DNA of 64,000 nucleotides from contig NZ_CP007128.1 in the NCBI RefSeq assembly GCF_000522985.1, positions 434,001 to 498,000 of the forward strand. Direction: 5' to 3'. Position numbers and translations under genes: made by a program. Below, piece after piece: positions 1 to 50,010 of this stretch; within the stretch, counting starts at the first letter, position 1; every line of letters starts with the position of its first letter. The notes beneath the pieces were generated by a model. It did not search any database and was not told the origin of the DNA. It saw only the letters and a program-made list of their open reading frames with translations. The DNA comes from Gemmatirosa kalamazoonensis. Lineage in GTDB: Bacteria; Gemmatimonadota; Gemmatimonadetes; Gemmatimonadales; Gemmatimonadaceae.

Positions 1-836
1 AGGTAGATCTCCGTCTGCTCGGGGAACGCGACTCCGGGCGGCATGACGCCGACGACGCGGTGCGGCACGTCGTTCAGCCGCACCTCGCGGCCGATCACCG
101 CGGGGTCGCCGCCGAACTGCCGCCGCCACAGCGCGTCGGACAGCACCGCCGCGCGCGGTCCGTCGGGCGTCGCCTCCTCGACGGTGAAGCCGCGCCCGCG
201 CGCCGGCGCTCGGCCGATCGTCGCGAAGAAGTCGCGCGTCGCGAGCGTGACGCGCACGCGCGCGGGCTCGTCGCCGCCGGTGAGATTGAGCCCACCCGGC
301 GCGTACGCCGCGACCGCCGCGAACACGCCGCGCAGCGCGCGCACGTCGGCGATGTCGGGCGCCGCTTTCGGGACGCCCGCCGGGCGCGCGAACTCGCGCA
401 CGGGGATGTCGACGTCGTCGACCATCACGAGCCGGTCGTCGCGCAGGAACGGCAGCGGCCGCAGGAGCGCGGCGTCGACCGCGCTGAACATCGCGGCGGC
501 GGCGCCGATGCCCAACGCGAGCACGAGCGTCACCGCGCCGGTGAACGCCGGCTGCTGCCACAGCTTGCGCGCGGCGTAGCGCAGGTCCTGCAGGAGCGTC
601 TCCATCGACTCGGCTCTCCTCGCTCGGCGTTGCAGGTCGTGGTCGTGCGTGCGGAGCCAGTCGCGCACGCGGTCGACGTCGCCGAAGCGCGCGCGGGCCA
701 GGCGGCGCGCCTCGTCCGGCGGGTGGCCGCGCGCCACGAGGTCGGCGGCGCACGACTCGAGGTGGAAGCGCAGCTCGTCGTCCACGTCGGCCTCGACGTC
801 GGGGCCCCAGAAGCGGAGCACTCGGCGCAAGCGCAT
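1..836 (-). CDS. ADOP-type FtsX-like ABC permease, N-terminal part
   Basis: This is the N-terminal ~278 residues of a MacB/FtsX-like permease of the ADOP (acidobacterial duplicated orphan permease) type. The C-terminal part lies beyond position 1. The start ATG at 836 gives MRLRRVLRFWGPDVEADVDD, the usual ADOP opening (LRFWGP followed by an acidic DDELRFHLE stretch). One transmembrane helix (roughly residues 80-105, with LALGIGAAAAMFSAVDAALL) and the start of the periplasmic MacB-like domain follow. The gene starts five bases after the PadR stop codon, so the two are surely co-transcribed. No ATPase gene is nearby, as is usual for this orphan family. The substrate cannot be predicted. The same family recurs at 14059, 28010 and 53751. 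Confidence 0.85.
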   Translation of the reverse strand, partial: MRLRRVLRFWGPDVEADVDDELRFHLESCAADLVARGHPPDEARRLARARFGDVDRVRDWLRTHDHDLQRRARRAESMETLLQDLRYAARKLWQQPAFTGAVTLVLALGIGAAAAMFSAVDAALLRPLPFLRDDRLVMVDDVDIPVREFARPAGVPKAAPDIADVRALRGVFAAVAAYAPGGLNLTGGDEPARVRVTLATRDFFATIGRAPARGRGFTVEEATPDGPRAAVLSDALWRRQFGGDPAVIGREVRLNDVPHRVVGVMPPGVAFPEQTEIY

Positions 837-841
837 CGGCG

Positions 842-1186
842 TCAGAGCACCGACGGCTCGGCGCGCAGCACCTGCGTCACCGCGCGCGAGAACTGCAGCC
901 ACGTCGACGCGTCCTCGCGCAGGTGCGCGCGGCCGGCGCGGGTGAGCGCGTACCAGCGCGCGCGCCGATTGTTCTCGGTGATCGCCCAGCGCGACGAGAT
1001 GAGCCCGCGGTCCTCCAGGCGCCGCAGCGCGGGATACAGCGAGCCCTCCTCGATCTGCAGCACGTCGCCGGTGACGTCCTGCACCCACCGCGCGATGCCG
1101 TAGCCGTGCAGCTCCTGCACGACGAGCGCCTTCAGGATCAGCAGTCCGAGCGTGCCCTGGAGCAGCGCTCCCTGGTCGCGTGCCAC
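842..1186 (-). CDS. PadR-family transcriptional regulator
   Basis: A 114-residue PadR-type winged-helix repressor. The sequence contains the family core LLQGTLGLLILKAL, HGYGIARW, EEGSLYPALRRLEDRGLI and ENNRRARWYALT, which correspond to the helix-turn-helix and wing. I chose the GTG at 1186 because GGAGG lies five bases upstream; the open frame continues to 1363 through non-coding repeat sequence. It is the first gene of a two-gene unit with the ADOP permease that begins at 836. The arrangement (small PadR then ADOP) is repeated twice more in the window, so the regulator probably controls its own operon in response to an unknown ligand. Confidence 0.9.
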   Translation of the reverse strand: MARDQGALLQGTLGLLILKALVVQELHGYGIARWVQDVTGDVLQIEEGSLYPALRRLEDRGLISSRWAITENNRRARWYALTRAGRAHLREDASTWLQFSRAVTQVLRAEPSVL

Positions 1187-1213
1187 CCGCGCCTCCAATC
1201 GTGGTTCGCGGGC

Positions 1214-1451: not shown

Positions 1452-2429
1452 TCACTCTTCGACGAGCACCAGGTACCGCGACGTCGCCCAGAACCGGTCG
1501 GGATCGGCGATGCGCAGCACCCCGCGCACCACCGGGTTGCCCGGCTGCGCCGGATCGAGCAGCGCCGGGTCGTGCGACGACACGATGCGGTACGGCCGGT
1601 CGCCGTTGGGCAGCCGGATCACGAGGTCGTGTCGACGATCGAGCACCGCGAACAGCCGATCGCGCGGCGCGCGCGCCGGCACGATCACCGTGTTCAGCCG
1701 CCCCACGAGCGGCACGCGCGTGCCGCCCTCCTCCACCACCACGCCGAGCCGCAGCAGCTCCTGGCGCGACGCCGCGATCACGAACACCGAATCGGCGCGC
1801 GCGGTGAGCCGCTGCACCGAGTCGGCGAGCGCGCCACGCTCCGCCGTGAGCTGCGCCTTCTCGCTCTCCAGCGTGTCGACGCGCGCGAGCAGCGACGCGA
1901 TCTGCTCCTGCTGCCCCTGCACGATCTCGCGGAAGCGCACCACGCTCGAGTCGAGCTCCGCGACGCGCGCCTCGAGCACGTCGTTGCGCCGCGCGAGGTC
2001 GCGCAGGCGCTCGGCCCGCTCGCGCGCCTCGGCCTCGTTGCGCGCGAGCCGCTCGGCGACGAGCTGGATGCGGCGCCGCATCAGCTCGCGCACCGGTGGC
2101 TCGGAGTCGACGCCCTCGCCGGCGAGACGGAGCTGCAGCGTGTCGGGGCCGGCGAGGCGCGTGAGGTCCGTGTCGACGCTGTCGATGAAGTCCTGGGTCT
2201 CGCGCACCTGCTGCAGCAGCGTGTCGCGCTCCGCCGACGCCGCGCGCAGATACTCCACCTCGTTGCGCAGCGCGATGAGCGAGTCGACCGCGGCGCGCGA
2301 CCCCTCGGCCCCGACCAGCCGGCGCACGGTGTCGCGCGCGCGACAGCCGGCCGCCGCGGGAAGCGCGGCGAGGGCGACCAACGTCGTTAGGCGTGTCAGC
2401 GCGCGCGGGTACACGGCGTGCCTCCCCAT
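1452..2429 (-). CDS. Coiled-coil lipoprotein, last gene of GTPase/SEDS operon
   Basis: A 325-residue envelope protein. The start ATG at 2429 has GGAGGAG about six bases upstream and overlaps the preceding gene by 34 bases. The N-terminus carries a signal peptide with a lipobox (LPAAAGC, cysteine near residue 28), so a lipid-anchored protein is predicted. Residues ~55-220 are rich in heptad-like leucine, arginine and glutamate (for example RIQLVAERLARNEAEARERA), indicating a long coiled coil. The C-terminal ~100 residues form a beta-rich globular domain ending VLVEE. I recognise no named family. Its position last in the operon suggests a periplasmic partner of the large SEDS-transpeptidase protein encoded just upstream. 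Function is not established. Confidence 0.85.
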   Translation of the reverse strand: MGRHAVYPRALTRLTTLVALAALPAAAGCRARDTVRRLVGAEGSRAAVDSLIALRNEVEYLRAASAERDTLLQQVRETQDFIDSVDTDLTRLAGPDTLQLRLAGEGVDSEPPVRELMRRRIQLVAERLARNEAEARERAERLRDLARRNDVLEARVAELDSSVVRFREIVQGQQEQIASLLARVDTLESEKAQLTAERGALADSVQRLTARADSVFVIAASRQELLRLGVVVEEGGTRVPLVGRLNTVIVPARAPRDRLFAVLDRRHDLVIRLPNGDRPYRIVSSHDPALLDPAQPGNPVVRGVLRIADPDRFWATSRYLVLVEE

Positions 2430-5400
2430 CCGAACTCCTCCCGCAGCGACGGCGCGACGGCATCGGCGAACAGCTTCGCGGCGCGCAGCCGCTCGGCGGC
2501 GCCGGGCTCGAGCTCCACGACGACGATCCCCGCCGCGGCGCACAGGGCGGCGCCCTTCGCCGACGAACGGCCCGCCCACAGGAACGCCGACAGCGGCTCC
2601 AGCGCGTCGCTCTCCAGCGTCCCGGTCTTGCCGACGAGGTCGAGCGTCGGCGCGGCGAACAGCGGCGCGACGTCGCGCGCGGTGCCGCGGTGCACGACGC
2701 CGCGCATCCCTTCCAGCACCGCGTCGCGGCCCGGCCCGAACGGCAGCGTGTCGAACGCCGGCGCCGGCAGCGACACCGCGCCCATGCGGCGCACGATGCG
2801 CAGCTCCACGGCGCGCCCCGTCGCGATGCGGCTCACCGCCTGCGCGAGCGCCGCGTTGCTCCACCGGTTGTCGGTCTCGCCGATGAGGAATCCCGCGACG
2901 TGCCGCAGGTCGGCGAACGCGCGGTCGTCGAGCGGCATCTCGGGGAGCGCCGGCGACACGCGCTGCCACGCCGCGCCGCCGCGGACGAGCCCCGAGTCGC
3001 GCGCCGCGCGCCACAGCGCGTCGTCGAACGCGCCCGGCGTCTGCCGGCCGGCGCGCGCGCCGAACAGCAGCGCGAGATTGCGCGCCAGCGGCGACGCGAG
3101 ATACGCCGCCGGCCGTTTCGCGGGGAGCGCCGGACGCCGATCGAGCCGCGTGCCGCGCACCGTCATCGGCGGGCCTTCGGCCGCCGCGCCCAGCACCGGC
3201 AGCCCGCCCGTCGCCGGCTCCTCGGCGAGACCGAACAGGCCTAACGTCACCGCGAAGCGGTTGTTCGAGTTCGGGAGGAAGCAATGCCAGGTGATGACGG
3301 GATCGTCGCAGCCGTTGCGCGCGGCGTGCATGGCGCGCCCGCCGAGCGGCCACCCCGCCGCGTCGGAGAACGTGTCCGACGGCTGCGCGACTTCGAGCGT
3401 GGTGAGCGCGGGATAGCGCGCGAGCACCGCGCTGGCGAGGATCGGCTTGATGACGGAACCGGGCCGGTGCGCACGCAAGTTCGCGTCGATCGGCTCGTAC
3501 GGCGGCCGCGCGAGCCCTGGCCGCTGCCACGACGCGACCGCGAGCACGTCGCCGCGCTCGGGATCGACGACGATCGCGCTGCACCGTCGCACCTCGCCGG
3601 CCGGCGCGCCGAGCGCCGCGCACCGCTCGGCGAGGCGGGCCGACAGGGCGTGCGAGAGCGACGGGTCGAGCGTGAGCGCGACGTCGGCGTCGTCCCCGGC
3701 GCGCGCGGTGACGATCGTGCGCGCGAGCACCGAGTCGAGCGCGGCGAGCAGCGGCGGCGCGCCGTCGGTCACGCGCTCCACGGCGCCGTTGCGCCACCGC
3801 GCGAAGCCCAGCGCGCCGCCCGGCAGCGAGTCCACGACGAGCGTCGCCGTGGCGCCCAACGAGAGCACGGCACCGCGAGCGAGCGCCCGGTGCGCGCGGC
3901 CGAGCGGCGTGCCGTCGAGCGACGCGAGCGATCCGGCCGTGAGCCGCGCCGTTGGATGCGCGCCGCCCTGCACCTCCACCGCCACGTCGCCGCACGTCAG
4001 CTCGACGGCGAGCGCGCGGATCGTATCGGCGGGACCGCCGCAGCGCGCGACGGCGCGCGCCGCACCCCCCGGGCCGAGCACGATCGGCGCGGCGAGGCCG
4101 GTGAGGACGATCTGTCCCGACGCCGCGCCGGCGACGAGCGCGCCGCGCCACCGCTCGCCGGCCGCGGGCCCACCGAGCCGACAGCCGGCGTCGTTCACGC
4201 GCACCGCGGCCTCGCCGCTCCACGTGAGCCACGGCACGCGGTCCAGGCACGTCGCGCGGGGCGCCGCCGTGCCGCGCGCGAACGCGTTGCTGCGCTGCAC
4301 GAGCGCGCGCACGAGGTCCCCGTCGCGCAGCCCGGCCTTGCCTGACGACGCCGTCGCCACCGCGAGCGTGTCGCCCTGCCGCACGAGATCACCGCGCCGC
4401 ACCAGCTCGCGCAGGTCGTCGGCCAGCGCGTCGAGCCCGAACGTCGGCACTTCCGCGTGCGTCGCGCGCCACGCCGCGGCGGAGACGCTCACCGCGGCCG
4501 CGACGACGAGCGCCCCCACGGTGCCTAACGTGAGCCGCAGCCGCCGCAGGTCGCCGCGCCGCACCTCCTCGCGCTCCGGATCGTCGTCGCGCGGCGCGGC
4601 GGGCAGCGCCACGACGGCGAGCGCGGCGAGCCACGACACGAACGCGACGTCGGCGCCCGAGCGGAGGCCGAGCAGCGGGAAGTTCTGTCCGGTGAGCGGG
4701 AGCAGCTCCACGTTCGCCGCCGCCATGTACAGCGCGGGCAGCACGACGTACGCGGCGATGCCGGCGAGCAGCAGCGCGAGGTGCGCCGTCTCCACGCGAC
4801 GCGCCGCGACGCGCGCGGCGAGCAGCAGCACGAGCCCGAACGCGACGAACGCGGCGAGCACCGCGACCCCGCCGACGAAGCCGTGCTCGCCGAGCACGAA
4901 CACCGAGAACGCGTTGTCGGTGAGCGCGACTTCCTCGGGGATCGCCGCGCCGTCGAACGGCAGCGAGAACAGCCCGCCGCCCGCGGTGCCGCCGTTCGCC
5001 GCGTGGGCGCGCATGCCCCACGTCTGCTGCAGCGTGTTCACGGTCTCGCGCCCCGTCTCCTCGCGGGCGAGCGCGAGCTGGTGGCCGAGCGCGTCCGGCG
5101 CGCGCACCGCGGCGTAGCGGATCTGCGGCGTGGCGAGCGACATCGGCCGCGTCGCCAGCGCGCTCGCGTCGACCGACACCGCGCGCGGCACGAGCACGCC
5201 GAGCACGAGGACGACTGCCGTCGCCGCCGCGGCGAGCGCCGCGCGTCCCACGGTCGCCGCGGCCACGGTCCCGGCGACGAGCACCGCCGCGAGCAGCAGG
5301 AGCAGCAGACCGCGGTCGACCACGCCGTACGCGAGGTACACGACGAGCGGCGCGAGCAGCGGCCCGAAAAGCAGCATGCGCGACAGCCGCTCCGGCGCGG

Positions 5401-7666
5401 CGCCGAGCTGCTGCCGCACGCGCAGTCCCGTCTCGCGGTGCCACCACGCGGCGAACACGCGCACGACGAGCAGCAGCGCGGCGACGGCGAGCGCGTAGCC
5501 CACGGTGATCGCGACGCGCCGCAGCCCGGTCCATCCGGCGACGAAGATGAGCCCCACCGGCAGCAGCGCGAAGCCTAACGGCGGCAGCACGTCGGCGCGG
5601 CGATACGGCCACCCGCGCAGCGGACGCGCGAGCGGCAGCAGCGCCGCCGCACCCGCCGCCGCCGTCGCCGCGCCGACCATGCCGGCGACGAGCAGCGGCA
5701 GCGCCACGGCGTGCGGTCGCACCACGCTCGTCGCGAGGAACGCGACCACCGCCGCGCCGAGCGACGCGCCGCCCACCCACGTCGCGAGCCGACGCGGCTC
5801 GACGCGCGGACGCACCCGCTCGCGCGCCCACACGAACGCGTACGCGAGCGCGGCCCCCGCGGCGTAGCCGACGGCGAGCAGCGGCGACGGCACGCCGCGG
5901 ATCGACCACGCGAGCGCGACGTAGAGCCCGAGCACGACGAGCAGCGCGGTGAAGGCGCGCCACATCTGCCGCGCGCCGAAGCCGCGCTCCGCGCGCGGCG
6001 ACAGCATCCCCACCGGCGACGCGTGCACGAACGCGCCGGCTTCGCCGGCGACGAGCACGCGCTGCAGCAGCAGGAGCCCCACGGTGCCGGCGCCGAGCAC
6101 GAACAGGCCGAGCATGAGGTGCGTCCCGGCGAGGCGCAGCGGCCCGGCCGCGACGACGAGCGCGCCGACGACCGCCGCGAGCGCGAGCAGCGCCGCGACC
6201 GCCGCGGCCGGACGCGCGCCGAGCACGCCTAACGGATTGCCGCCCGCCGGCGTCAGCGCGCGGGCGATCCGCTCGCGTCCGCGCCCCACCGCGCTCGGCC
6301 ACCGCTCGAGCAGGAACACGAGCAGCGGGAACGTCGCCAGGAACAGCGCCGCCCACGGCAGCGCTTCGGCGTTGTACGGCGGCGCGGCGCTCACGCGCCA
6401 TGCGAGCGCCATGCGCACGAGTGCGAGCAGGTACGCGAGGCCGAGCACCGCGACGCGCAACGCGCCGCCGGGCGCCGCGAGGGCCAGCAGCAGCGCGCCC
6501 GCGGCCCAGATCGCCCCAGCGGCGAGCAGCGCTCCACGGGCCGCGCCCGGCGCCTCGATCCGGACGAGGTGTCCGCGCTCGGCCACCGGCGCACCGACGC
6601 CGGGGAAGCGTTCCACCGCGTTGGGCCGCAGGACGCGCGACGATCCGGCGACGTGCCAGCGGAACTCGCGGCCCGTCCACTCCAGGGCGCCGGCGTACGG
6701 GCGGGCGCGTGGGCCTAACGGCGCCGCGGCGTCGAGGTCGAGCAGCCGGAGCGTTCCCGGGCCAGCGCGCGTCGCCGCGACGACGCGGTGCACGACGCGC
6801 CCGCTCGACGTGCCGAGCGACCACCGGTCGCCGCGCGTGCGCCCCACGAAGTCGAGCGACACCCGGTTCGCGAGCGTGTCCGGATGCACGCGCAGCCCCT
6901 CGGCGAGCATGCCGACGCCGACGCGCAGCTCGGGCCACCGGCCGTCGCCGGCGCGCGCCGAGGCGGCGCCGGGCACCGGGTGTCCGTTCACGCGCACGGG
7001 GCCCGCGGGGCTCGCGACGATCCACACGCGACGCGCCGCCGTCACGAGCGCGAACGGCGCGCGCGACAGGCGACGGTCGCCGAGGGCGCCCGCCGGCACG
7101 CCCGCGCGCCCGACGCGCACCGGGATCCGCGCGACGTTCGCGCCGTCGTGCACGATCAGCGTACGCTCGCCGCACAGCCGCTCGACGCGCAGCAGACAGC
7201 CGGCGGGCCACATCGGCATCGCCGCGGTGACGACGAGTCGCGGCGCGGACGTCAGCGTGACGCGCGTGCCGTGCGCGAGCGGCGCCGCGTTCACCGGCGC
7301 GCCGTCGAGCGACACCGGCGCGACGCCGGAGTCGACGCGCACGCGAACGGCGTGCGCTGCATGGTCGTACCAGAGCCGCACGAGCGCTCCGCCCACGCCG
7401 GGTGTCGACACCGGCAGCCGCACGTCGGCGGCCGGCGTGCCGCCCACGAGCACCGTGTCCGCGATCGGCGCGTACTGGCCAGTGACGCGCAGCGCCCATC
7501 CGGCGCGCGGCGGCGCCTGGCGCACGAGCAGCGCCAGCGCGGCGAGCGGCGCGAGCGCGACGACGAGCGTCTGCAGCGGGCGCCAGCGCGCGCCGCTGCG
7601 CGCCGCCCACAGCGCGGCGAGCGCGGTGATCGTGAGGCAGGCGAGGATCGCGAGGGCGAGCGTCAC
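2396..7666 (-). CDS. Fused SEDS (FtsW/RodA) and penicillin-binding transpeptidase with FHA-like region
   Basis: A 1756-residue polypeptide that fuses the two halves of a peptidoglycan synthase. Residues ~1-60 hold two membrane segments. Residues ~60-390 form beta-rich, FHA-like soluble segments. Roughly 390-1150 is a polytopic membrane region ending in the SEDS signature, LTDNAFSVFVLGEHG, with the probable catalytic Asp917, followed by PLTGQNFPLLG. The C-terminal ~600 residues are a periplasmic penicillin-binding domain with all three active-site motifs: SVIK (Ser1404, Lys1407), SNN (1467-1469) and KTG (1680-1682). The GTG start at 7666 has a GGAGGT ribosome site five bases upstream and overlaps the previous stop by four bases (GTGA). 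SEDS proteins polymerise glycan and class B PBPs cross-link it, so one chain may do both. The FHA-like call is tentative; the SEDS and PBP calls are firm. Confidence 0.88.
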   Translation of the reverse strand: MTLALAILACLTITALAALWAARSGARWRPLQTLVVALAPLAALALLVRQAPPRAGWALRVTGQYAPIADTVLVGGTPAADVRLPVSTPGVGGALVRLWYDHAAHAVRVRVDSGVAPVSLDGAPVNAAPLAHGTRVTLTSAPRLVVTAAMPMWPAGCLLRVERLCGERTLIVHDGANVARIPVRVGRAGVPAGALGDRRLSRAPFALVTAARRVWIVASPAGPVRVNGHPVPGAASARAGDGRWPELRVGVGMLAEGLRVHPDTLANRVSLDFVGRTRGDRWSLGTSSGRVVHRVVAATRAGPGTLRLLDLDAAAPLGPRARPYAGALEWTGREFRWHVAGSSRVLRPNAVERFPGVGAPVAERGHLVRIEAPGAARGALLAAGAIWAAGALLLALAAPGGALRVAVLGLAYLLALVRMALAWRVSAAPPYNAEALPWAALFLATFPLLVFLLERWPSAVGRGRERIARALTPAGGNPLGVLGARPAAAVAALLALAAVVGALVVAAGPLRLAGTHLMLGLFVLGAGTVGLLLLQRVLVAGEAGAFVHASPVGMLSPRAERGFGARQMWRAFTALLVVLGLYVALAWSIRGVPSPLLAVGYAAGAALAYAFVWARERVRPRVEPRRLATWVGGASLGAAVVAFLATSVVRPHAVALPLLVAGMVGAATAAAGAAALLPLARPLRGWPYRRADVLPPLGFALLPVGLIFVAGWTGLRRVAITVGYALAVAALLLVVRVFAAWWHRETGLRVRQQLGAAPERLSRMLLFGPLLAPLVVYLAYGVVDRGLLLLLLAAVLVAGTVAAATVGRAALAAAATAVVLVLGVLVPRAVSVDASALATRPMSLATPQIRYAAVRAPDALGHQLALAREETGRETVNTLQQTWGMRAHAANGGTAGGGLFSLPFDGAAIPEEVALTDNAFSVFVLGEHGFVGGVAVLAAFVAFGLVLLLAARVAARRVETAHLALLLAGIAAYVVLPALYMAAANVELLPLTGQNFPLLGLRSGADVAFVSWLAALAVVALPAAPRDDDPEREEVRRGDLRRLRLTLGTVGALVVAAAVSVSAAAWRATHAEVPTFGLDALADDLRELVRRGDLVRQGDTLAVATASSGKAGLRDGDLVRALVQRSNAFARGTAAPRATCLDRVPWLTWSGEAAVRVNDAGCRLGGPAAGERWRGALVAGAASGQIVLTGLAAPIVLGPGGAARAVARCGGPADTIRALAVELTCGDVAVEVQGGAHPTARLTAGSLASLDGTPLGRAHRALARGAVLSLGATATLVVDSLPGGALGFARWRNGAVERVTDGAPPLLAALDSVLARTIVTARAGDDADVALTLDPSLSHALSARLAERCAALGAPAGEVRRCSAIVVDPERGDVLAVASWQRPGLARPPYEPIDANLRAHRPGSVIKPILASAVLARYPALTTLEVAQPSDTFSDAAGWPLGGRAMHAARNGCDDPVITWHCFLPNSNNRFAVTLGLFGLAEEPATGGLPVLGAAAEGPPMTVRGTRLDRRPALPAKRPAAYLASPLARNLALLFGARAGRQTPGAFDDALWRAARDSGLVRGGAAWQRVSPALPEMPLDDRAFADLRHVAGFLIGETDNRWSNAALAQAVSRIATGRAVELRIVRRMGAVSLPAPAFDTLPFGPGRDAVLEGMRGVVHRGTARDVAPLFAAPTLDLVGKTGTLESDALEPLSAFLWAGRSSAKGAALCAAAGIVVVELEPGAAERLRAAKLFADAVAPSLREEFGWGGTPCTRAR

Positions 7667-9126
7667 GGCGCACCTCCCGCGTCGAGCGTCGCGAGCCGGA
7701 GCCGCGCCTCGCGCCGCATCGGCGGCGGGCCTAACAGCGCCCACGTGAAGTCGGCGCGCACGTCGGCGAGCGGGCACGCGAGCCCGCCGTCGACGCACGC
7801 GACGCCGCGCGCGAAGCGGAGACCGACGAGCCGGCGGCTCCCTGCCGGCCCGCGCCGCACGGCGTCGGTCGCCCGCGCGCGCGCCGCCTCGCGCAGCCCG
7901 CGCGCCACCGTCGCGTCGCTCTCGTCGGCCGCGGCCTGCAGCGCGGCGACGACGTACAGCGAGTCCCACGCGAAGCGCAGCGCCGGCGGCGGCACCCGGT
8001 TGGCGAGCGCGTCGACCGCGTCGCGCCACTCGCCACGGTTCGCGGCGCCGCGCGCGTCGCGGAGTCGCGCGAGCGCCTGGCCGTCGGGAAGCGCCGCGCG
8101 CGCGACTTCGCCCGTCGCGGTGCGTGCGACCGCGCCGCCCGCACTGTCACGCGGCAGCGACTCGAGCGCGCGTACCGGCCGCGCGAGCATGTGCTTCGCC
8201 ACCGGCACGAGCTGCACGGCGGCCGCGCCGACCGTCACCGCCGCGGCGGCGACGAGCACGACCTGCACGACGCGGTTCCGCAGGGCGAGCGCGACCGACG
8301 CGCGCACGACGGGACGAGCGGTGCCTAACAGTTCCTTCGCGCGCGCGACACGGTCGCGCACCGTCGGATGCGGCGTCGACAGCTCGGCGAGCCAGTCGAA
8401 CACCGGATCGAGCCCCTCGGGCTGGACGCGGCCCTCCACGCTTCCCGCGGAGGTGACGGCGAAGCACCGCATCGCGGGACACGCCGCCTCGAACCACGTG
8501 AACGTCGTCTCGCCGAGATGCGCGCGGAGCGCGGCGGCCGGATCCGCGCGCGCCGCGGCGCGCTCGGCGTCGGGCAGCTGGTCGACCTTGCTGAGGCACA
8601 GCGCGACCGGGATGCCGAGCTGTCGGCCGCCGCTCGCCTCGAGCAGCGCGACGAGGTGCTGCAGCGCGAGCATGCGTGCGCCCACGTCGTGCGGCCGCTG
8701 CCCCGGCTCGACGAGCCACACGACGCCGCCGCCGCGCGCGATCCGCGCGAACAGCGAGCGCCCCTCGCGTGTCGTCCCGAGCTCGAGCTGCGTGGAGAAC
8801 TCGCCCGCCGGGTCGACGAGCGCGACGCGCATCGCGCCGACCTGCCGCCCGCCGCGACGACGGCGCAGCAGCACCCGCAGCGGCGGATACTCGCCGGCGG
8901 CCGGCATGCCGGTCTTCGTGTTCGTGCGCCCGCGCAGACCGAGGTACGCGTCCTTCAGCCGCTCCTGCGTGAGCGCGTCCTCGGCGTCCTTCGGGTGCGC
9001 CGACCAGCCGTCGGCATCCGGGGCGAGCGACGCGGCGTAGAGCGCGCCTAACAGTCCGCTCTTGCCCGCCCCGGGCGCGCCCCACAGGGTGACGCCGTGC
9101 TCCAGCGTCGCGTCGGGGAGCGTCAT
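7663..9126 (-). CDS. Membrane-anchored P-loop GTPase, double-GTPase (DO-GTPase) type
   Basis: A 487-residue protein. The N-terminal half is a P-loop GTPase: Walker A GAPGAGKSG near residue 20, a G3-like DPAGEF, and SKVD as the base-recognition NKxD-type motif. A single transmembrane helix (VVQVVLVAAAAVTVG, around residue 305) follows, then a small C-terminal domain that would lie across the membrane. The ATG at 9126 overlaps the upstream stop (ATGA) and is preceded by GGGAGGA. The other GTPase of the operon (11576-12511) and the GAP1-like protein between them match the arrangement of 'double-GTPase' systems described for NTP-dependent conflict or signalling loci. That assignment is an inference from motif pattern and order. 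What is seen directly is the G-domain, the membrane helix and the tight coupling to the wall-synthase gene. Confidence 0.8.
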   Translation of the reverse strand: MTLPDATLEHGVTLWGAPGAGKSGLLGALYAASLAPDADGWSAHPKDAEDALTQERLKDAYLGLRGRTNTKTGMPAAGEYPPLRVLLRRRRGGRQVGAMRVALVDPAGEFSTQLELGTTREGRSLFARIARGGGVVWLVEPGQRPHDVGARMLALQHLVALLEASGGRQLGIPVALCLSKVDQLPDAERAAARADPAAALRAHLGETTFTWFEAACPAMRCFAVTSAGSVEGRVQPEGLDPVFDWLAELSTPHPTVRDRVARAKELLGTARPVVRASVALALRNRVVQVVLVAAAAVTVGAAAVQLVPVAKHMLARPVRALESLPRDSAGGAVARTATGEVARAALPDGQALARLRDARGAANRGEWRDAVDALANRVPPPALRFAWDSLYVVAALQAAADESDATVARGLREAARARATDAVRRGPAGSRRLVGLRFARGVACVDGGLACPLADVRADFTWALLGPPPMRREARLRLATLDAGGAP

Positions 9127-11579
9127 CGTCCGTCCTCCCGGCCTCGGCGCCCGAGCAGCGCACGCCACCACGGGCGCGCATCGTCCGGCGCGCCGAGGAA
9201 CGCGCGCAACAGCGCGCGCTGCGCGGGAAGCAGTTCGTCGCTGCGGCGGAGCGTGCGCAGCGCCGCGCGCCGCACGGCCCACGCGCTCGGCTCGCGTGTC
9301 GCCTCCACCTCGGCCGCGCTCGCGGCGAGCCGTCGGAGCTGCACGAGCGAGCGCAGCGCCTCGGGCGCGTCGTGCACGACGGCGGCGGCCAGCGACGACG
9401 CCGCGTCGGCGTCGGCGAGCTCACCGAGCAGCGCGAGCGCGGCGCCGAGCTTTGCGGCGCCGGCGCGCGTCGGCGGCAGCGTCGCCGCCCAACGGGCCAG
9501 TGACGGCGCCGCGGCATCGGCCGCCGCGGCATCGAGGCGGTAGTCGAGGTCCGCGAGCGCCGCACACGTCGCCGCGAGCTCGTCGAGCGCGATCGGATCG
9601 GTCGTCGCGCGTGCGAGCGACCGCGCGAGGAGCACGCGCCGCGCATCGACGTCGACGTGCGCGAGCAGCGCCGGCCACCGTCCGCCGAGTGGGGGCCCAT
9701 CGAGCGCGGCACGCCCGAGCAGCGCGCCGAGCACGGTGCCTAACGTCGCGTCGGCGGGCAGCGACTCGGCGACCGCGACGACGGCGCCGACGTCGGTGCC
9801 GTGGGCGAGCGCGCGCAGCGTCGCGGCGCCGAGCCATCCCGCGCGCTCGTCGCGCGGTGCGCTCGTGAGCGAGCGCATCGCGGCGCCCTCGTCGTGCGGG
9901 GAAAGCGCGCGCGTGTCCGCATCGTCGAGCAGCCAGCGCACCGCCTCGCCGCGCGCATCGCCGGGCGCCACGCGCGCCCAGAAGCCGAGCAGCGACTCGG
10001 CGAGCCTGCGCAGTCGGTCCGGTGTGCCAGAGTCCGAGGCTGCGCGCGCGCACGTCGCCACGGCGCGTGCCGCGACGGCGAGCGCGAGCCCCGCGGCGTC
10101 GCGGCGCGCGGGTCCGGCGAGCGTCGTCGCCAGCGCGCCGATCGCGTCGAGCGCGGCGACGGCCGCCTCGGCGTCGCCGTCGCGCGCGTGGACGAGCGCG
10201 GTCACCACGGTGCCGGTGAGCCGGGACGCGGCGCTTCCGCGCCACGGCGTCGTCCCTACCTCGTACGAGGCGTCCACGTCGGCGAGCTGCACCAGCCGCT
10301 CGCCGTCGCCGCGCCGCGCGGCCACCACGGCGACGGCCGCCCGCGCGTCGCGCGCCGCCGTGTCGCCTGCCCAGCGCAGCCGATCGCATCCGCCGAGCAC
10401 CGCATCGAGCACGCGCGACGCGACCGCGCCGTCGGCGCCGGCCTCCTCGCGCAGCAGCTCCGTCACGAGTCGCGCGCCGAGCGCGTACGCGTCGGCGCTC
10501 CGCTCGGCCAGCACGGCCACGAGCGCGGCGCCTAACGCCTCGGGCGCGAACGCGGCGAGCGTCGCGCGGGCGAGCCGCTCGCGCTCGCGCGCATCGTCGG
10601 CGCGCGCCGCCGCGCGCAGCGCCCCGGCCGCGTCGCCGCGACTGCGGGCCGTCGCGTGCGCGCCGAGACGCGCGACGCGCTCCACCTCGACGAGCAGGGC
10701 GCGCGGCTGCGGTGTCGCCGGCGCGAGGTCCTCGTACAGCGCGTGCGCGGCGAGCAGCGCGTCGCCGTCGAGCGCGAGCAGCGCGTCGGCCGCGGCGTCG
10801 GCGCGCGCGTCGGCCAGGCCGATCTCGCGCGGCAGCTCGCGCGTCCATTCGACCGTGCCCAGCTCCGCGTAGCGCCGGTCGGCGCCGGTGAGGCGCGGCA
10901 TGCTGCGAGGCGCGCGCGTGGCCGCAGTCTGGAACGTCACGAGCGTGCGGAGCGTCGGCGGGAGCAGCAGCACCACGCACTGCAGCAGCCCCACGAGCGG
11001 CGCGGCGGGCGACACCCACAGCACGCGGTCGCCGGCGAGCAGCGCGGCGAGCAGCGGCCGCAGCTCGTGCATCTCGTCCACCGCGCGCCGCGCCTCGGCC
11101 AGCCGCGCCATCTCGGCGGCCGGGGTGCTCGGCGCGAAGCGCGGCACGTCCAGCGCACGCGGCGCGTCGACACCGGCGAGCTCCTGGCGGCGCGGCATGC
11201 ACCGGAACGGATCGGCGCGCAGGGCGAGGAACGTCGCGCGGTCGATCGCCACGCTGTCGGACACGAGCGCGAGGCGCCCGCGCGCGTCGTGCAGCGTCGC
11301 GTAGCGCGTGCAGACGATCCCCCACCCCGGCACGTCGAGGCACGACAGCGCGCCGTCGATCGGCACGGTCGGGTCGCCGATGCTCACCGCGCGACAGAGC
11401 GCGTGCGCCGCCTCCGGCGTCAGGTTCGGCGAGTGCGCGACGACGGCGTACTGGTCGTCGACGAGGCCGAACACGGCGCGCGCGGTGCCGGCGAACGGGG
11501 GCGCCTCGTTCGGCCCGTTAGGCGCGCCGGGCGCGGACGGCGCGTAGTCGGGCGCTCCGGCCAGCGGGACCGTCGTCAT
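9123..11579 (-). CDS. Large GTPase-associated (GAP1-like) protein
   Basis: An 818-residue, mostly alpha-helical protein encoded between two GTPases. The N-terminal ~120 residues contain a conserved-looking block (VFGLVDDQYAVVAHSPNLT, then VPGWGIVCTRYATL) resembling the N-terminal domains of GTPase-associated GAP1 proteins. A middle region with WVSPAAPLVGLLQCVVLLLPP and LRTLVTFQT follows, then ~450 residues of Ala/Leu/Arg-rich helical repeats. It has no signal peptide and no clear transmembrane segment, so it is probably cytoplasmic. The ATG at 11579 has GGAGGT upstream; both ends overlap neighbouring genes in ATGA. The likely role is to link or regulate the two GTPases. The family name is my inference from order and pattern and needs a profile search. 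Confidence 0.65.
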   Translation of the reverse strand: MTTVPLAGAPDYAPSAPGAPNGPNEAPPFAGTARAVFGLVDDQYAVVAHSPNLTPEAAHALCRAVSIGDPTVPIDGALSCLDVPGWGIVCTRYATLHDARGRLALVSDSVAIDRATFLALRADPFRCMPRRQELAGVDAPRALDVPRFAPSTPAAEMARLAEARRAVDEMHELRPLLAALLAGDRVLWVSPAAPLVGLLQCVVLLLPPTLRTLVTFQTAATRAPRSMPRLTGADRRYAELGTVEWTRELPREIGLADARADAAADALLALDGDALLAAHALYEDLAPATPQPRALLVEVERVARLGAHATARSRGDAAGALRAAARADDARERERLARATLAAFAPEALGAALVAVLAERSADAYALGARLVTELLREEAGADGAVASRVLDAVLGGCDRLRWAGDTAARDARAAVAVVAARRGDGERLVQLADVDASYEVGTTPWRGSAASRLTGTVVTALVHARDGDAEAAVAALDAIGALATTLAGPARRDAAGLALAVAARAVATCARAASDSGTPDRLRRLAESLLGFWARVAPGDARGEAVRWLLDDADTRALSPHDEGAAMRSLTSAPRDERAGWLGAATLRALAHGTDVGAVVAVAESLPADATLGTVLGALLGRAALDGPPLGGRWPALLAHVDVDARRVLLARSLARATTDPIALDELAATCAALADLDYRLDAAAADAAAPSLARWAATLPPTRAGAAKLGAALALLGELADADAASSLAAAVVHDAPEALRSLVQLRRLAASAAEVEATREPSAWAVRRAALRTLRRSDELLPAQRALLRAFLGAPDDARPWWRALLGRRGREDGR

Positions 11580-12511
11580 GCGCTGACCTCCGGGCGGACG
11601 GCGCGCGCGACCTCGATCGTCGGTGCGGCGCTCGGATCGGGAAGCGGCGCGGCGGGGCGCGGGGCGCCGTGCTCGAGCACCCACCGCAGCGGGCGCAGCG
11701 CATTCCACGGCTCGGGGTCGCCGACGAGCACGTCGCGCCCGTCGCGCTTCTCGAGCGCGCGGCCGAGCGCGCTGATAGCGATCACGGTGTGCGTGGTGAG
11801 CGACGTCTCGAGCAGTCCCGCGCTCTCGCCGACGATCTCGCGGAGCTGCACGCGCCGGCTCTCGTCGGCGCGCAGCATCTCGTGCTCGTCCGCTTTCGTG
11901 AGGCACACCGCGACCGGGATGCGCAGCCGATTCTGCTCGTCGAGGCGCGGATCGGGGCGCCCGCCGGCGCGCGCGCGCAGGCGCAGCACGAGCGCGCCGA
12001 GCGTGCTCTGGAAGAACGACGTGTAATACGCCGCCGCATCGTCGACGGCCCGGCGTCCGTCGCCGCGCTCGGCATGACGGCCGGGATCGACGAGCAGCAC
12101 GATCCCGGCCGCGTCGAGCATCGCGTCGAGCATCTCGGGCGGCGGCGCGCCGTCGTACGTCGCGCCGGGCACGTCCCACACCGCGAGCTCGCCGAGTCGC
12201 CGCGACGGTCGCCGTGCGGCATCGTGGAAGCGAGACGCGGCGCGCGCCGGCAGGTCGTAGAGCTGGAAGCGCAGCTCGCGCGCCTCGCGGGTCTGTGCGC
12301 GCGCGTCGGGGCCGTCGCCGCGCAGCGCGCGCACCTGGCGCGTGACCCATTCCGCGGTCACGGCGTCGGCCGGCAGCACACACAGCCGCCGCTCGTCGGC
12401 GGGCTGCCGGTGGTAGAACACGAGCGTCGAGAGGTACGTCGACTTCCCCGCGCCCGTCGCGCCCCAGAGCACGATCCGGCGCGGGACGTCGGGCTGGTAC
12501 GACTCCGTCAT
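11576..12511 (-). CDS. P-loop GTPase, first gene of the double-GTPase/SEDS operon
   Basis: A 311-residue soluble GTPase. Walker A is GATGAGKST near residues 18-26, the G3-like motif is WDVPGATY and the base-recognition motif is TKAD. After the G-domain comes a short proline/alanine-rich tail (APRPAAPLPDPSAAP). I chose the ATG at 12511, which has GGAG six bases upstream; a GTG twelve bases earlier lacks a ribosome site. It overlaps the next gene in ATGA. It is the promoter-proximal member of the five-gene operon 12511-1452. Like the GTPase at 7663 it fits the DO-GTPase pattern, but it lacks a membrane helix, so the pair may act as soluble and membrane-bound partners. Confidence 0.8.
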   Translation of the reverse strand: MTESYQPDVPRRIVLWGATGAGKSTYLSTLVFYHRQPADERRLCVLPADAVTAEWVTRQVRALRGDGPDARAQTREARELRFQLYDLPARAASRFHDAARRPSRRLGELAVWDVPGATYDGAPPPEMLDAMLDAAGIVLLVDPGRHAERGDGRRAVDDAAAYYTSFFQSTLGALVLRLRARAGGRPDPRLDEQNRLRIPVAVCLTKADEHEMLRADESRRVQLREIVGESAGLLETSLTTHTVIAISALGRALEKRDGRDVLVGDPEPWNALRPLRWVLEHGAPRPAAPLPDPSAAPTIEVARAVRPEVSA

Positions 12512-12582
12512 CAGCCTCTCCACTGGAGTGACGGATTCCCTTACGGCGGTGGGCGGGCGGAAGTGCCAGTCGCGCCCGTCGG

Positions 12583-12698
12583 GACTCCACGTACGTGTTC
12601 TTGGAGGACTGAAGAAGGACCAACGACTCGTTGGTGTTCTCCTTCTTCAGTCCTCCTTCAGTCCTTCTTCAGTCCCACGGAAACTCGTCCGTGGAGTC
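12583..12698. repeat. Dispersed hairpin element, copy 1 (second copy at 38191)
   Basis: An outer stem (GACTCCAC and its complement GTGGAGTC, 12583-12590 and 12691-12698) encloses a core stem (12603-12626 with 12629-12656) made of GGACTGAAG-type units. The right arm carries extra copies of the unit. The stop codon and last ~17 codons of the symporter gene lie inside it. About 45 bases of the right arm (12630-12674) recur identically at 38259-38303. Confidence 0.85.
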
Positions 12699-13950: not shown

Positions 13951-14065
13951 GACCTGACAGCGGGAGTCGGGACTCGGGACTCGGGACTCGGAACTCGTCC
14001 CCCCCGAGTCCCGAGTCCCGAGTCCCGAGTCCCGAGTCCCGAGTCCCGAGTCCCGCCGTCAGGTC
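13951..14065. repeat. GGGACTC-unit hairpin 3' of the ADOP gene
   Basis: Tandem 7-base units (GGGACTC) on the left (13961-13997) face complementary CGAGTCC units on the right (14005-14056). They are bracketed by an outer stem GACCTGAC/GTCAGGTC that includes the ADOP stop codon at 14059. The left arm holds about four units and the right arm about seven, so alternative pairings are possible. The same unit reappears at 49861-50010. Confidence 0.8.
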
Positions 14066-16731
14066 TCGCGAATGACCGCCGCCGGATCCGTGCGTGCCGC
14101 GCGCATCGCCGGCACGAGCGCCGCCACCACGGCCACAGCGGCGAGCAGCACCGCCACCGCGACGAACACCGGCGGGTCGGTCGGACGCACCTCGTAGAGC
14201 AGCGACGCGAGGACGCGCCCCGACGCGTACGCCGCCGCCGCGCCGATCGCGATGCCGACGACCGTCAGCCGGAGCGACTGGCCGACCACCCACCGCACCA
14301 CGCTGCGCGGGCGCGCGCCGAGCGCGATACGCACGCTGATCTCGCGCTGCCGCTGCGCGACGCCGGTCGCGATCACGCCGTACAGCCCCACCGCGGCGAG
14401 CAGCAGCGCGGCGCCGGCGAAGATCGTGAGCATGAGCATCGAGAAGCGCGGCTGCGACACCGTGCGCGACAGCGCGTCCTCCAGCGTCTGCACCTCCGAC
14501 AGCGGCAGGTCCCGGTCGATCGCCGCGAGCTCGCGCCGCAGCGCCGGCACCACGCGCCCCGCCGGCAGCGTCGTGCGCACGATGACCCACGACGAGCTCC
14601 CGGGCGACTGATCGAACGGGAAGTACAGCGTGCCGCGCGGCTCCGTCGCGAGGCCGTCGTTGCGCACGTCGTCCACCACGCCGACGATCGTGATCCACGG
14701 CGCGTCCGACTCGCGTGGCCCCTGCTTGATGCGACGCCCCACCGCGCTCGATGCGCCGAACACCCGCCGCGCCACGCGCGCGCTCACCACCGCGACGCGC
14801 GGGTGCGACGCATCGTCGGCCGGCTCGAACGTGCGGCCCTCGAGCAGCTTCACCCGGAGCGCGCGGAAGAAGCCCGTCGACGCCAGCGTCGCGTCGAGCA
14901 GCGGCGGGTTCCCCTCGCGGAACGTCACGCCCTCGAACGTCACCGTCGTCTGCCACCCGCTGTTCACCGGGAGGTCGCTGCCTAACGCCGCCACCTCCAC
15001 GCCCGGCACCGCGGCCGCGCGCCGCAGCAGCTCGTCGAACGCGCGACGCCGCGACGCGTCGTCGGGATAGCGCGCCTTCGGCAGCTCCACGAGCCCGGCC
15101 ACGACGTGCCGCGGGTCGAATCCCGGCGCGACGCCGGTGAGCTTCGCGAAGCTGCGGAGCAGCAGCCCCGCGCCCACGAGCAGCACGAGCGCGAGCGCCA
15201 CCTCGGTCACCGTGAGCCCCGCGGCGAGCCCGCGCCGCCGGCCGGTGCCCACCGCGCCGCGCCCCGCCTCGCGCAGCGTGCCGATCGGATCGCTCCGCGC
15301 CAGCATGCGCGCCGGCACCACGCCGAACAGCAGCCCCGTGACGAGCGACACGCCGAGCGCGAACGCGAGCACCACGCCGTCCACGCGGATCGCGGAGAGC
15401 CGCGGCAGGTTCGCGGGCTCCAGCGCGAGCAGCAGCTTCACGCCGGCCCACGCGAGCGCGACGCCGAGCGCGCCGCCCAACAGCGCGAGCACCACGCTCT
15501 CCGTGAGCGCCTGCCGCACGAGCCGCCGCCGCCCCGCGCCGATCGCCGCGCGCAGCGCGAAGTCGTGCCGCCGCTCGGCCACGCGGCCGAGCATCAGGTT
15601 CGCGACGTTCGCGCAGGCGATGAGCAGCACGAGCCCGACGGCCGCCCACAGCATGCGCAGCGCGGGGCGCACGCCGCCGACGGTGATCTCCTCGAGCGAC
15701 GTGCCGGCGGCGCCGATGCCGTCCGTCTCGGGATGCTCCTTGTGGATCTGCGCCGACACGCGCGCCAGGTCGGCGTTCATCGCGTCGAGCGTGACGCCCG
15801 GCCGCAGCCGCCCGATGCCGGTGAGCCCCGGGTGGTTGCTGCGCGACGCGAAGCGCTCCTCGTGCGCGAACTGCCCGATCGGCACCCACACGTCGACGCC
15901 GCCGAAGCGGAACGACGGCGGCATCACGCCGACGATCGTGTAGCTCCGCCCGTCGAGCAGGATGGTGCGGCCGACGACGCGCTCGTCGCCGGCGAAGCGA
16001 CGCCGCCAGAACTTGTCGGTGAGCACCGCGACCGGCTCGGCCCCCGCGGCCTCGTCAGCCGGCGTGAGCGTGCGGCCATGCGCGGCGCTCACGCCGAGCA
16101 CGCGGAACATGTTCCCCGTCGTCAGCGCGCCCGAGAGGCGCTCCGGCTCGGCCACGCCGGTGAGCGTGAACGACTCGTAGCCGTTCACGGCGGCGAGGCC
16201 CGCGCCACCGCCCTCGAAGCTCCGCGTGCGCTGCTGCCAGTCGAGGAAGTCCTGATACGACACCGCGATCTGCGGCACGTCGCGCGCCGTCTGCCAGAGC
16301 AGCACGAGCCGGTCGGGATCACGGTAGCCCGGGTCGCTCAGCAGCACGCCGTTCACGACGCTGAAGATCGCGGTGTTCGCGCCGATGCCGATGGCGAGCG
16401 TGAGCACCGCGGCGGCGAGGAAGCGCGGGCGCCGTCGGAACGACCGCCACGTGTGCTTCACGTCCTGGCGCAGCACGTCGAGCGACGCGGCCCGTTGGGC
16501 GCGCGCCTCGCGCCGCTCGTCCGACGCGCGGCAATCGGCGCGCGCCGCTTCCACGTCGCCGAACTTCGCGAGCGCGGCGGCCCGCGCGCGCTCCGGCGAC
16601 ATCCCGGCCGCGACCAGCTCCTCGATCTCGGTGTCGAGGTGGAAGCGGAACTCGTCGTCGAGATCCTGCGCCGGGTTCGCGCCCCAGAAGCGGAGATAGC
16701 GTCGCCAGAGCGGCGGCTTGGGCGTGGGCAT
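14059..16731 (-). CDS. ADOP-type FtsX-like ABC permease
   Basis: An 890-residue inner-membrane protein. Residues 1-60 carry the ADOP opening (LWRRYLRFWG, then DLDDEFRFHLD). One transmembrane helix (LTLAIGIGANTAIFSVVNGVL, near residue 100) precedes a large periplasmic MacB-like domain. A central four-helix FtsX block, a second periplasmic domain and a three-helix C-terminal FtsX block follow, ending PAAVIRET. The ATG at 16731 has GGGAG about six bases upstream. It follows a PadR gene by 12 bases. ADOP proteins lack a dedicated ATPase gene and their transported substrate is unknown. The stop codon lies in the outer stem of a repeat-armed hairpin. Confidence 0.9.
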   Translation of the reverse strand: MPTPKPPLWRRYLRFWGANPAQDLDDEFRFHLDTEIEELVAAGMSPERARAAALAKFGDVEAARADCRASDERREARAQRAASLDVLRQDVKHTWRSFRRRPRFLAAAVLTLAIGIGANTAIFSVVNGVLLSDPGYRDPDRLVLLWQTARDVPQIAVSYQDFLDWQQRTRSFEGGGAGLAAVNGYESFTLTGVAEPERLSGALTTGNMFRVLGVSAAHGRTLTPADEAAGAEPVAVLTDKFWRRRFAGDERVVGRTILLDGRSYTIVGVMPPSFRFGGVDVWVPIGQFAHEERFASRSNHPGLTGIGRLRPGVTLDAMNADLARVSAQIHKEHPETDGIGAAGTSLEEITVGGVRPALRMLWAAVGLVLLIACANVANLMLGRVAERRHDFALRAAIGAGRRRLVRQALTESVVLALLGGALGVALAWAGVKLLLALEPANLPRLSAIRVDGVVLAFALGVSLVTGLLFGVVPARMLARSDPIGTLREAGRGAVGTGRRRGLAAGLTVTEVALALVLLVGAGLLLRSFAKLTGVAPGFDPRHVVAGLVELPKARYPDDASRRRAFDELLRRAAAVPGVEVAALGSDLPVNSGWQTTVTFEGVTFREGNPPLLDATLASTGFFRALRVKLLEGRTFEPADDASHPRVAVVSARVARRVFGASSAVGRRIKQGPRESDAPWITIVGVVDDVRNDGLATEPRGTLYFPFDQSPGSSSWVIVRTTLPAGRVVPALRRELAAIDRDLPLSEVQTLEDALSRTVSQPRFSMLMLTIFAGAALLLAAVGLYGVIATGVAQRQREISVRIALGARPRSVVRWVVGQSLRLTVVGIAIGAAAAYASGRVLASLLYEVRPTDPPVFVAVAVLLAAVAVVAALVPAMRAARTDPAAVIRET

Positions 16732-16743
16732 GGCGGGCTCCCG

Positions 16744-17094
16744 TTAGGCGGGTTGGGCGACGGCGCCGAGCATCTTGCCCACGGCGACCGCGTACTTCTG
16801 CCACGCCGAGACCTCGGCCCGGAGCTGCTGCCGGCCGGACGCGGTGAGGCGGTAGAACTTCGCGCGCTTTCCCCGGTCGCTGAGTCCCCACTCCGCCTCC
16901 ACCCACCCGCGCTCCTCCATGCGGTGGAGCGCGGCGTAGAGCGAGCCGTCGAGCACCTCGAACGCGCCGTCGGTGGAGCTGCGGATCAGGCGCGCGACGG
17001 CGTGGCCGTGCTGCGGGCCCCACGACAGCGCCTTGAGCACGAGCACGTCGAGCGTGCCCTGGAGGAGGCCGAGCTGGGTGGCGGTGGTCGGCAT
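16744..17094 (-). CDS. PadR-family transcriptional regulator
   Basis: A 116-residue winged-helix regulator with the PadR core LLQGTLDVLVLKALSWGPQHGHAVARLI, DGSLYAALHRMEERGWVEAEW and GKRAKFYRLT. (The first motif is quoted in overlapping pieces: LLQGTLDVLVLKAL and HGHAVARLI.) The ATG at 17094 has AGGGA seven bases upstream. It heads the unit PadR-ADOP (14059-16731). Its promoter (17121-17149) shares layout with those of the other two PadR genes, which suggests common autoregulation. Confidence 0.92.
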   Translation of the reverse strand: MPTTATQLGLLQGTLDVLVLKALSWGPQHGHAVARLIRSSTDGAFEVLDGSLYAALHRMEERGWVEAEWGLSDRGKRAKFYRLTASGRQQLRAEVSAWQKYAVAVGKMLGAVAQPA

Positions 17095-38190: not shown

Positions 38191-38327
38191 GACTCCACGT
38201 ACGAGTGGTCGTTGGACCTCGGCGGACTGAAGGAGGACTGAAGAAGGACCAACTTCTTGTTGGTGTTCTCCTTCTTCAGTCCTCCTTCAGTCCTTCTTCA
38301 GTCCTTCAGAAACTCGTACGTGGAGTC
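38191..38327. repeat. Dispersed hairpin element, copy 2
   Basis: Same plan as 12583-12698: outer stem GACTCCACGTACG with CGTACGTGGAGTC, and a core of GGACTGAAG-type units (38225-38253 with 38259-38293). It lies between convergent genes (stops at 38171 and 38306) and encodes the last seven codons of the minus-strand one. The right-arm block 38259-38303 is identical to 12630-12674. Confidence 0.85.
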
Positions 38328-49860: not shown

Positions 49861-50010
49861 TCGGGACTCGGGACTCGGGACTCGGGACTCGAGACTCGGG
49901 GATCCGGTGCTGCCAGCAGGGATCAGGCCGTTGCTTCGCCCGCGTCCGTCCGCTCCATTGGCTCCTCCGCGCCGAGTCCCGAGTCGCGAGTCCCGAGTCC
50001 CGACGACTCG
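49861..50010. repeat. GGGACTC-unit inverted array at the end of the GH57-like gene
   Basis: Five or six GGGACTC-type units (49861-49899) face complementary units (49973-50010) across ~75 bases. The right block is inside the coding region of the GH57-like gene and encodes its SGLGTRDSGLG tail. The unit is the same as at 13951-14065. Confidence 0.8.

Follow-up and report, generated by a model that had tools for sequence, protein, structure and literature searches.

Gene content of the locus

The window analysed here is the whole stretch of 64,000 nucleotides at positions 434001-498000 of contig C2 of the Gemmatirosa kalamazoonensis genome (G000:C2:434001-498000); the contig has 5,311,527 bases, and the genome comprises 7,479,215 bases in four contigs. 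The genome of strain KBS708 has been reported as a 5,312-kb chromosome with three further elements of 1,106, 1,041 and 21 kb (PMC3974934). Five genes, all on the minus strand, form an operon in the order GTPase A, GAP1-like protein, GTPase B, SEDS-PBP fusion and lipoprotein (Table 1). They were found where the earlier note had placed them, GTPase A having been started there at ATG 12511. That note had described all of the genes as overlapping by four bases; this is correct for the first three junctions (ATGA, ATGA and GTGA), but the lipoprotein gene overlaps the fusion gene by 34 bases, counted from the first ATG of the lipoprotein. Among the neighbours, which were named from sequence alone, genes for a dicarboxylate-type symporter and an ABC permease lie upstream of the operon, and a PadR-like regulator gene lies downstream. 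The region is flanked by two sets, each of a large ABC permease and a PadR-like regulator (window 1-1198 and 14059-17094, likewise named from sequence).

Table 1. Features of the five-gene operon, in window coordinates.
Feature	Coordinates	Strand	Evidence
GTPase A, soluble DO-GTPase2-like P-loop GTPase, 315 aa; start GTG 12523 or ATG 12511	11576..12523	-	PF19993 E 5.9e-4, motifs, orthologues in G015, G215, G345, G325
GAP1-like protein, 818 aa; alpha/beta N-terminal part, GAP1-M-like part, all-helical C-terminal part (predicted)	9123..11579	-	Low-confidence model, GAP1-M match, orthologues
GAP1-M-like segment, residues about 177-226	10902..11051	-	PF20014, best match of whole genome, E 0.020
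GTPase B, DO-GTPase2 of 487 aa; a single C-terminal transmembrane helix, followed by a final ~180 residues	7663..9126	-	PF19993 E 1.6e-5, motifs, TM scan
GTPase B predicted transmembrane helix, residues 286-304	8215..8271	-	Hydropathy
SEDS-class B PBP fusion, 1756 aa, about 20 predicted TM helices	2396..7666	-	PF00905, PF01098, TM scan
N-terminal domain of the fusion between TM2 and TM3, residues 50-379; conserved Cys157/Cys165	6530..7519	-	Alignments, TM scan
SEDS region, residues about 571-1025	4592..5956	-	PF01098 match at residues 890-999; alignment with the genome's own RodA
Asp917 (LTDN), at the position of the SEDS catalytic Asp (D297 in E. coli FtsW)	4916..4918	-	Alignment; FtsW D297 from PMC8765783
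Class B PBP transpeptidase domain, residues about 1330-1751; SxxK 1404-1407, SNN 1467-1469, KTG 1680-1682	2414..3679	-	PF00905, motifs, fold
Coiled-coil lipoprotein, 325 aa	1452..2429	-	NF052320 E 1.1e-11

Two DO-GTPase2-like proteins

The two P-loop GTPases that had been noticed on either side of the 818-residue protein were confirmed, with the P-loops GATGAGKST and GAPGAGKSG and the motifs TKAD and SKVD. Profile searches placed both in DO-GTPase2 (PF19993) rather than in unrelated ATPase families, in agreement with the proposed DO-GTPase membership. Against a cut-off of 27 bits, GTPase B scored 25.1 bits alone and 27.4 bits in a genome search together with its neighbours, whereas GTPase A scored 20 bits, and the orthologues were also below the cut-off. 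GTPase A has its P-loop (GATGAGKS) at 12440-12463 and TKAD as its G4 motif, and its Walker B motif is WDVPGA, in which the glutamate is lost; the orthologues in G015, G215 and G325 have WDVPGE. The G4 lysine of GTPase A is missing in four of the five genomes, and the window copy lacks the Walker B glutamate instead, so that GTPase A is, judged by its motifs, degenerate.

In GTPase B, the P-loop, VDPAGE and SK[VI]D motifs are kept in G000, G015 and G325. Its transmembrane helix was also predicted by hydropathy in the G325 and G019 orthologues; none was detected in the G015 orthologue at the threshold used. A pair of cysteines that follows the helix was seen by eye in the window, G325 and G019 proteins, and because of this pair the part after the helix would suit the periplasm. 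No relative of GTPase B was found among PDB sequences or on plasmids. The gene order in both the window and G015 comprises two paralogous DO-GTPase copies with the GAP1-like gene downstream of the first.

A divergent GAP1-like protein

Pfam and NCBIfam scans of the 818-residue protein found nothing, with no match to GAP1-N or GAP1-C. When whole genomes were searched with GAP1-M (PF20014) at a lax limit, the best genome-wide match fell in this gene in G345 (E = 7.5e-4), G000 (0.020) and G015 (0.117), all three matches being below the Pfam cut-off and within model positions 8-72; the GAP1-like genes of G325 and G215 were not picked up by the same search. Though each match alone is weak, three genomes pointing to one gene at one position make chance hard to credit. 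The signal, weak but repeated, suggests a GAP1-like protein, as the earlier note had supposed. Alignment by hhalign with one canonical Myxococcota GAP1 recovered the same segment weakly (E = 0.05). The structure model had a pLDDT of 51, fold comparison returned generic helical repeats only, and PDB sequences contained no relative that was found.

FNIII repeats, which are part of described GAP1-N2 systems, had no match in the five operon proteins, and the GASH helical protein had none among them at E up to 5 in a profile library not confirmed to hold a GASH model. GAP1-M searches were also made in the phyla of two metagenome-assembled genomes (MAGs): the 189 genomes of the phylum of a Myxococcota MAG gave one match, and the 395 genomes of the phylum of a Prevotellaceae MAG gave none. 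Three weak GAP1-M matches in Gemmatimonadota looked like chance and were set aside.

A SEDS-class B PBP fusion

The fusion begins with TM1 and TM2, joined by an Arg-rich loop; a domain of ~330 residues and numerous TM helices come next, and the SEDS region is then separated by another TM helix from the class B PBP. The N-terminal domain (residues 50-379) had no Pfam match and is probably periplasmic. A reading of this part as FHA domains was dropped, as no Pfam FHA match was found and the position and conserved cysteines favour the periplasm.

The PBP half is certainly a class B PBP. It scored 22.9 bits against PF00905 (cut-off 22.1), its transpeptidase motifs are complete (S1404xxK, S1467NN and K1680TG), and the modelled domain matched class B PBPs with Z of about 30 (rmsd 2.7-3.4 over 303-340 residues in the top three rows). 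No GT51 domain was matched in the fusion.

The SEDS half is more divergent by sequence. Its PF01098 match (21.5 bits, cut-off 26.4) covers the C-terminal third of the model only; the fusion also matches TIGR02210 and TIGR02614 at E = 1e-3 or better, and the AlphaFold model of this part was of low confidence. In E. coli FtsW, D297 is the catalytic aspartate, and the Y379A and G380A substitutions in the SYGG motif of loop 5 abolish function (PMC8765783). D917 of the fusion, in extracellular loop 4, aligns with TDFIF of the genome's own RodA, so the putative catalytic aspartate is kept. The SYGG motif is gone, being replaced by LRSG (GLRSG) in the window and by GLN[SA]W in others, and polymerase activity is for this reason not assured. 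The SEDS-transpeptidase fusion described in the earlier note was upheld by the profile matches and the PBP fold; its statement that every catalytic motif is present applies to the PBP half, but not to a SEDS half in which the aspartate is kept and SYGG has become LRSG. No relative of the fusion was found among PDB sequences or on plasmids.

The lipoprotein

The lipoprotein resembles the Cbp1 family (NF052320) in being a coiled-coil lipoprotein, with a match that starts at the coiled coil and extends to the C-terminus. It differs in scoring 44.8 bits, below the cut-off of 90, and in being encoded with wall synthase or GTPase genes; by this profile match it is a distant relative of the family. 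Relatives follow the PBP in G345, G019 and G332, and one follows a GTPase B in G019. The lipoprotein had been counted as a member of the operon, which holds for the window, but it belongs to the set in some lineages only. In G019, the GTPase B orthologue and the Cbp1-like lipoprotein after it (L035:7604-9966) lie apart from that genome's SEDS-PBP-lipoprotein genes (L028).

Conservation of the gene set

The same four genes (the two GTPases, the GAP1-like protein and the fusion) recur in G015 in the same order with 42-47% identity; there the first junction is a gap of 5 bases, and the other two are ATGA overlaps. In G325 the four genes are again in order, and the contig ends within the PBP. Pieces were found in G345 (GTPase A and GAP1 at one contig end, PBP and lipoprotein on another contig) and in G215 (GTPase A and GAP1 at one contig end, the fusion on another). 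Since the set recurs in this manner, the gene block is not a chance association, and the gene order is present in relatives. Within the family, 5 of 179 genomes have an orthologue of the GAP1-like protein, and the same five carry the fusion, which was searched among 99; G345 is counted as a carrier on a contig that has no more of the fusion than the PBP half and a short stretch preceding it. A conserved association is borne out by this co-occurrence. GTPase B was found in three of 298 phylum genomes.

A second GTPase-synthase arrangement, in another genus and with SEDS and PBP split, is found in G092, where one run of genes (L032:1188-12546) encodes SEDS, PBP, two P-loop GTPases, two small membrane proteins and a 941-residue protein. 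The last may be a GAP1 analogue. It was not called GAP1, as direct profile comparison with the GAP1-like protein found nothing.

A third SEDS-PBP family

A scan of 84,980 species for the synthase gave 14 loci, mostly in Gemmatimonadota. Outside the GTPase-linked clade, SEDS and PBP are almost always separate neighbours with no GTPase gene nearby. In the tree, the GTPase-linked clade is monophyletic (support 1.0), and the synthase family is separate from the FtsW and RodA of its own genomes (support 0.8); the genome of the window also has a separate FtsW and RodA. The synthase forms a SEDS family of its own, a third beside FtsW and RodA, which in Gemmatimonadota is widespread and as a rule split. 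It predates the GTPase linkage and has a broader distribution, and because most Gemmatimonadota with the synthase have no GTPases nearby, the enzyme family in itself can do without the GTPase switch.

Among the scored sequences, the SEDS catalytic position holds Asp (TDN) in the linked clade, represented by four fusions, and Glu (AEN) in all others (L028-L030, L032, L038, L040, L042-L046 and L048). L038 carries a single-frame SEDS-PBP with Glu (L038:1-3684) outside the GTPase-linked clade, which is either a second, independent fusion or an assembly error. The contig of L043, from a Myxococcota MAG, is probably misbinned, because its SEDS gene nests within Gemmatimonadota and the neighbouring transporter is the same as in L046.

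Comparison with described systems

SEDS and class B PBP act as a pair in RodA-PBP2 and FtsW-FtsI. The operon's enzyme likewise combines a putative SEDS polymerase with a class B PBP and has its putative catalytic Asp in extracellular loop 4. In contrast to those pairs, it is one polypeptide with an extra N-terminal domain and TM helices and with SYGG replaced, it is additional to the genome's own FtsW and RodA, and GTPases are encoded in its operon. LpoA/LpoB and CpoB are outer-membrane lipoprotein activators of PBPs, and by analogy the operon's lipoprotein could reach the PBP from outside.

The GTPase part of the operon resembles the DO-GTPase/GAP1 systems of Kaur et al. (2020), two copies being present in 38% of the systems described (PMC7159879). 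As in those systems, there are two DO-GTPase paralogues, of which one is membrane-bound and the first is followed by a GAP1-like protein; a further likeness is that GAP1-N2 systems are membrane-linked, some with wall-binding domains (PMC7159879). Unlike those systems, the operon has a wall synthase as its constant partner, no FNIII protein was found, and its GAP1 is too divergent for Pfam. The main text of that paper makes no mention of FtsW, RodA, penicillin, transpeptidase or Gemmatimonad (PMC7159879), and the family's terms are used by only two papers in the literature searched, a body that leaves most subscription journals outside. Its titles, abstracts and passages, so far as looked at, yielded no natural SEDS-PBP fusion. 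The parts are of known kinds, and the combination is new as far as searched, which accords with the statement of the earlier note that no such system is known to have been described.

A GTPase-controlled peptidoglycan synthase as the preferred reading

The reading we favour, with a probability of roughly 0.5, is that the operon specifies a dedicated peptidoglycan synthase of a third SEDS-class B PBP type, made in one polypeptide and controlled by a membrane-anchored DO-GTPase/GAP1 switch. What the sequence gives directly is the gene set with its conservation, the enzyme motifs and a single predicted TM helix in GTPase B; from these we infer gating by the GTPases. GTPase A, soluble and degenerate, would pair with GTPase B in the manner proposed for DO-GTPases. 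GTPase B, with all motifs kept, would be tethered to the membrane with its C-terminal part on the far side, and GAP1 would serve as a platform linking the nucleotide state with the effector. Through the helix of GTPase B, its GTP state could then be relayed to the fusion, and wall synthesis would thereby be switched on or off. Where present, the coiled-coil lipoprotein may be a PBP-activating or positioning partner on the outer side. Likely occasions would be envelope stress or unusual morphogenesis, such as polar spherical appendages or asymmetric division. DO-GTPases have been linked to membrane stress and occur in membrane-stress operons (PMC11237479), GAP1-N2 systems carry peptidoglycan-binding domains (PMC7159879), and Gemmatimonadota divide by asymmetric fission and bear spherical appendages whose role is unknown (PMC11271474); a tie between the third synthase and the appendages or asymmetric fission is a guess.

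Several observations suggest such a switch: the four-base overlaps, the gene order in G015 and G325, the co-occurrence in the same five genomes and the G092 arrangement; the DO-GTPase2 matches, the GAP1-M signal, the TM helix of GTPase B, and the PBP motifs and fold; the SEDS Asp, kept only in the monophyletic GTPase-linked clade; and the Cbp1-like lipoproteins that adjoin both synthase and GTPase B in G019. Counted against it are a synthase mostly without GTPases nearby, the missing SYGG, a GAP1 match below cut-off and a low-confidence SEDS model.

The missing SYGG, together with the Glu that replaces the catalytic Asp in related split SEDS proteins, would also suit a fusion that acts as a sensor and not as a working synthase, binding lipid II or wall fragments and passing wall status inwards to the GTPase/GAP1 relay. 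The ~330 extra, probably periplasmic residues near its N-terminus could serve such a role, and growth would be served by the separate FtsW and RodA. However, all three transpeptidase motifs are kept, the SEDS Asp is retained precisely in the GTPase-linked clade, and conservation around the enzyme motifs is strong, so that we regard a sensor as unlikely.

DO-GTPase/GAP1 sets have been proposed as conflict systems (PMC7159879), and the operon's patchy distribution (5 of 179 genomes) would fit an anti-phage or inter-bacterial system of this kind in which wall synthesis is the effector, either in repair or in self-damage on infection. This is quite improbable in our estimation, as the partner is constant across the genera found instead of being a variable effector, the linked synthases are one clade, PADLOC gave no defence match beyond one weak P-loop match, the neighbours are transporters, and plasmids gave no match. 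That the GTPases have a different target, such as secretion or the lipoprotein, and are tied to the synthase by nothing more than the operon would agree with the separate GTPase B-lipoprotein pair of G019 and with the split SEDS-PBP pairs, most of which have no GTPase nearby, but is very unlikely given that fusion and GAP1 occur in the same five genomes, that G092 has a second arrangement and that the genes overlap translationally.

A bolder form of the GTPase-controlled synthase, which we offer tentatively and consider rather doubtful, is that this is the first peptidoglycan synthase controlled by a GTP switch, a DO-GTPase/GAP1 relay having captured a third SEDS-class B PBP family, which was fused into one chain and put to a special wall task such as polar appendages or asymmetric division. 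The roles of DO-GTPase/GAP1 sets are, as far as we found, predictions; a constant enzyme partner with known assays (penicillin binding and lipid II polymerisation) makes their function testable. The family adds a third SEDS-PBP type, mostly split and wide in Gemmatimonadota, to a phylum with unexplained cell division and appendages, for which a shortage of genetic tools has been noted (PMC11271474). The evidence suggests a GTP-controlled wall-building machine, in a few soil Gemmatimonadota, that would be unlike any described.

Repeats near the operon

Upstream of the operon, at window 12583-12698, lies a hairpin repeat with GGACTGAAGAAGGAC-type arms that recurs at 38224-38304; this GGACTGAAGAAGGAC-type hairpin is either a dispersed repeat family or a terminator. 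Repeats of the heptamer GGGACTC are found at window 13961-14065, where they form a long hairpin, and at 49863-50001. A GGGACTC-type repeat hairpin, elsewhere intergenic, lies in frame within the GTPase A gene of G325 (L033, about 5830-5960).
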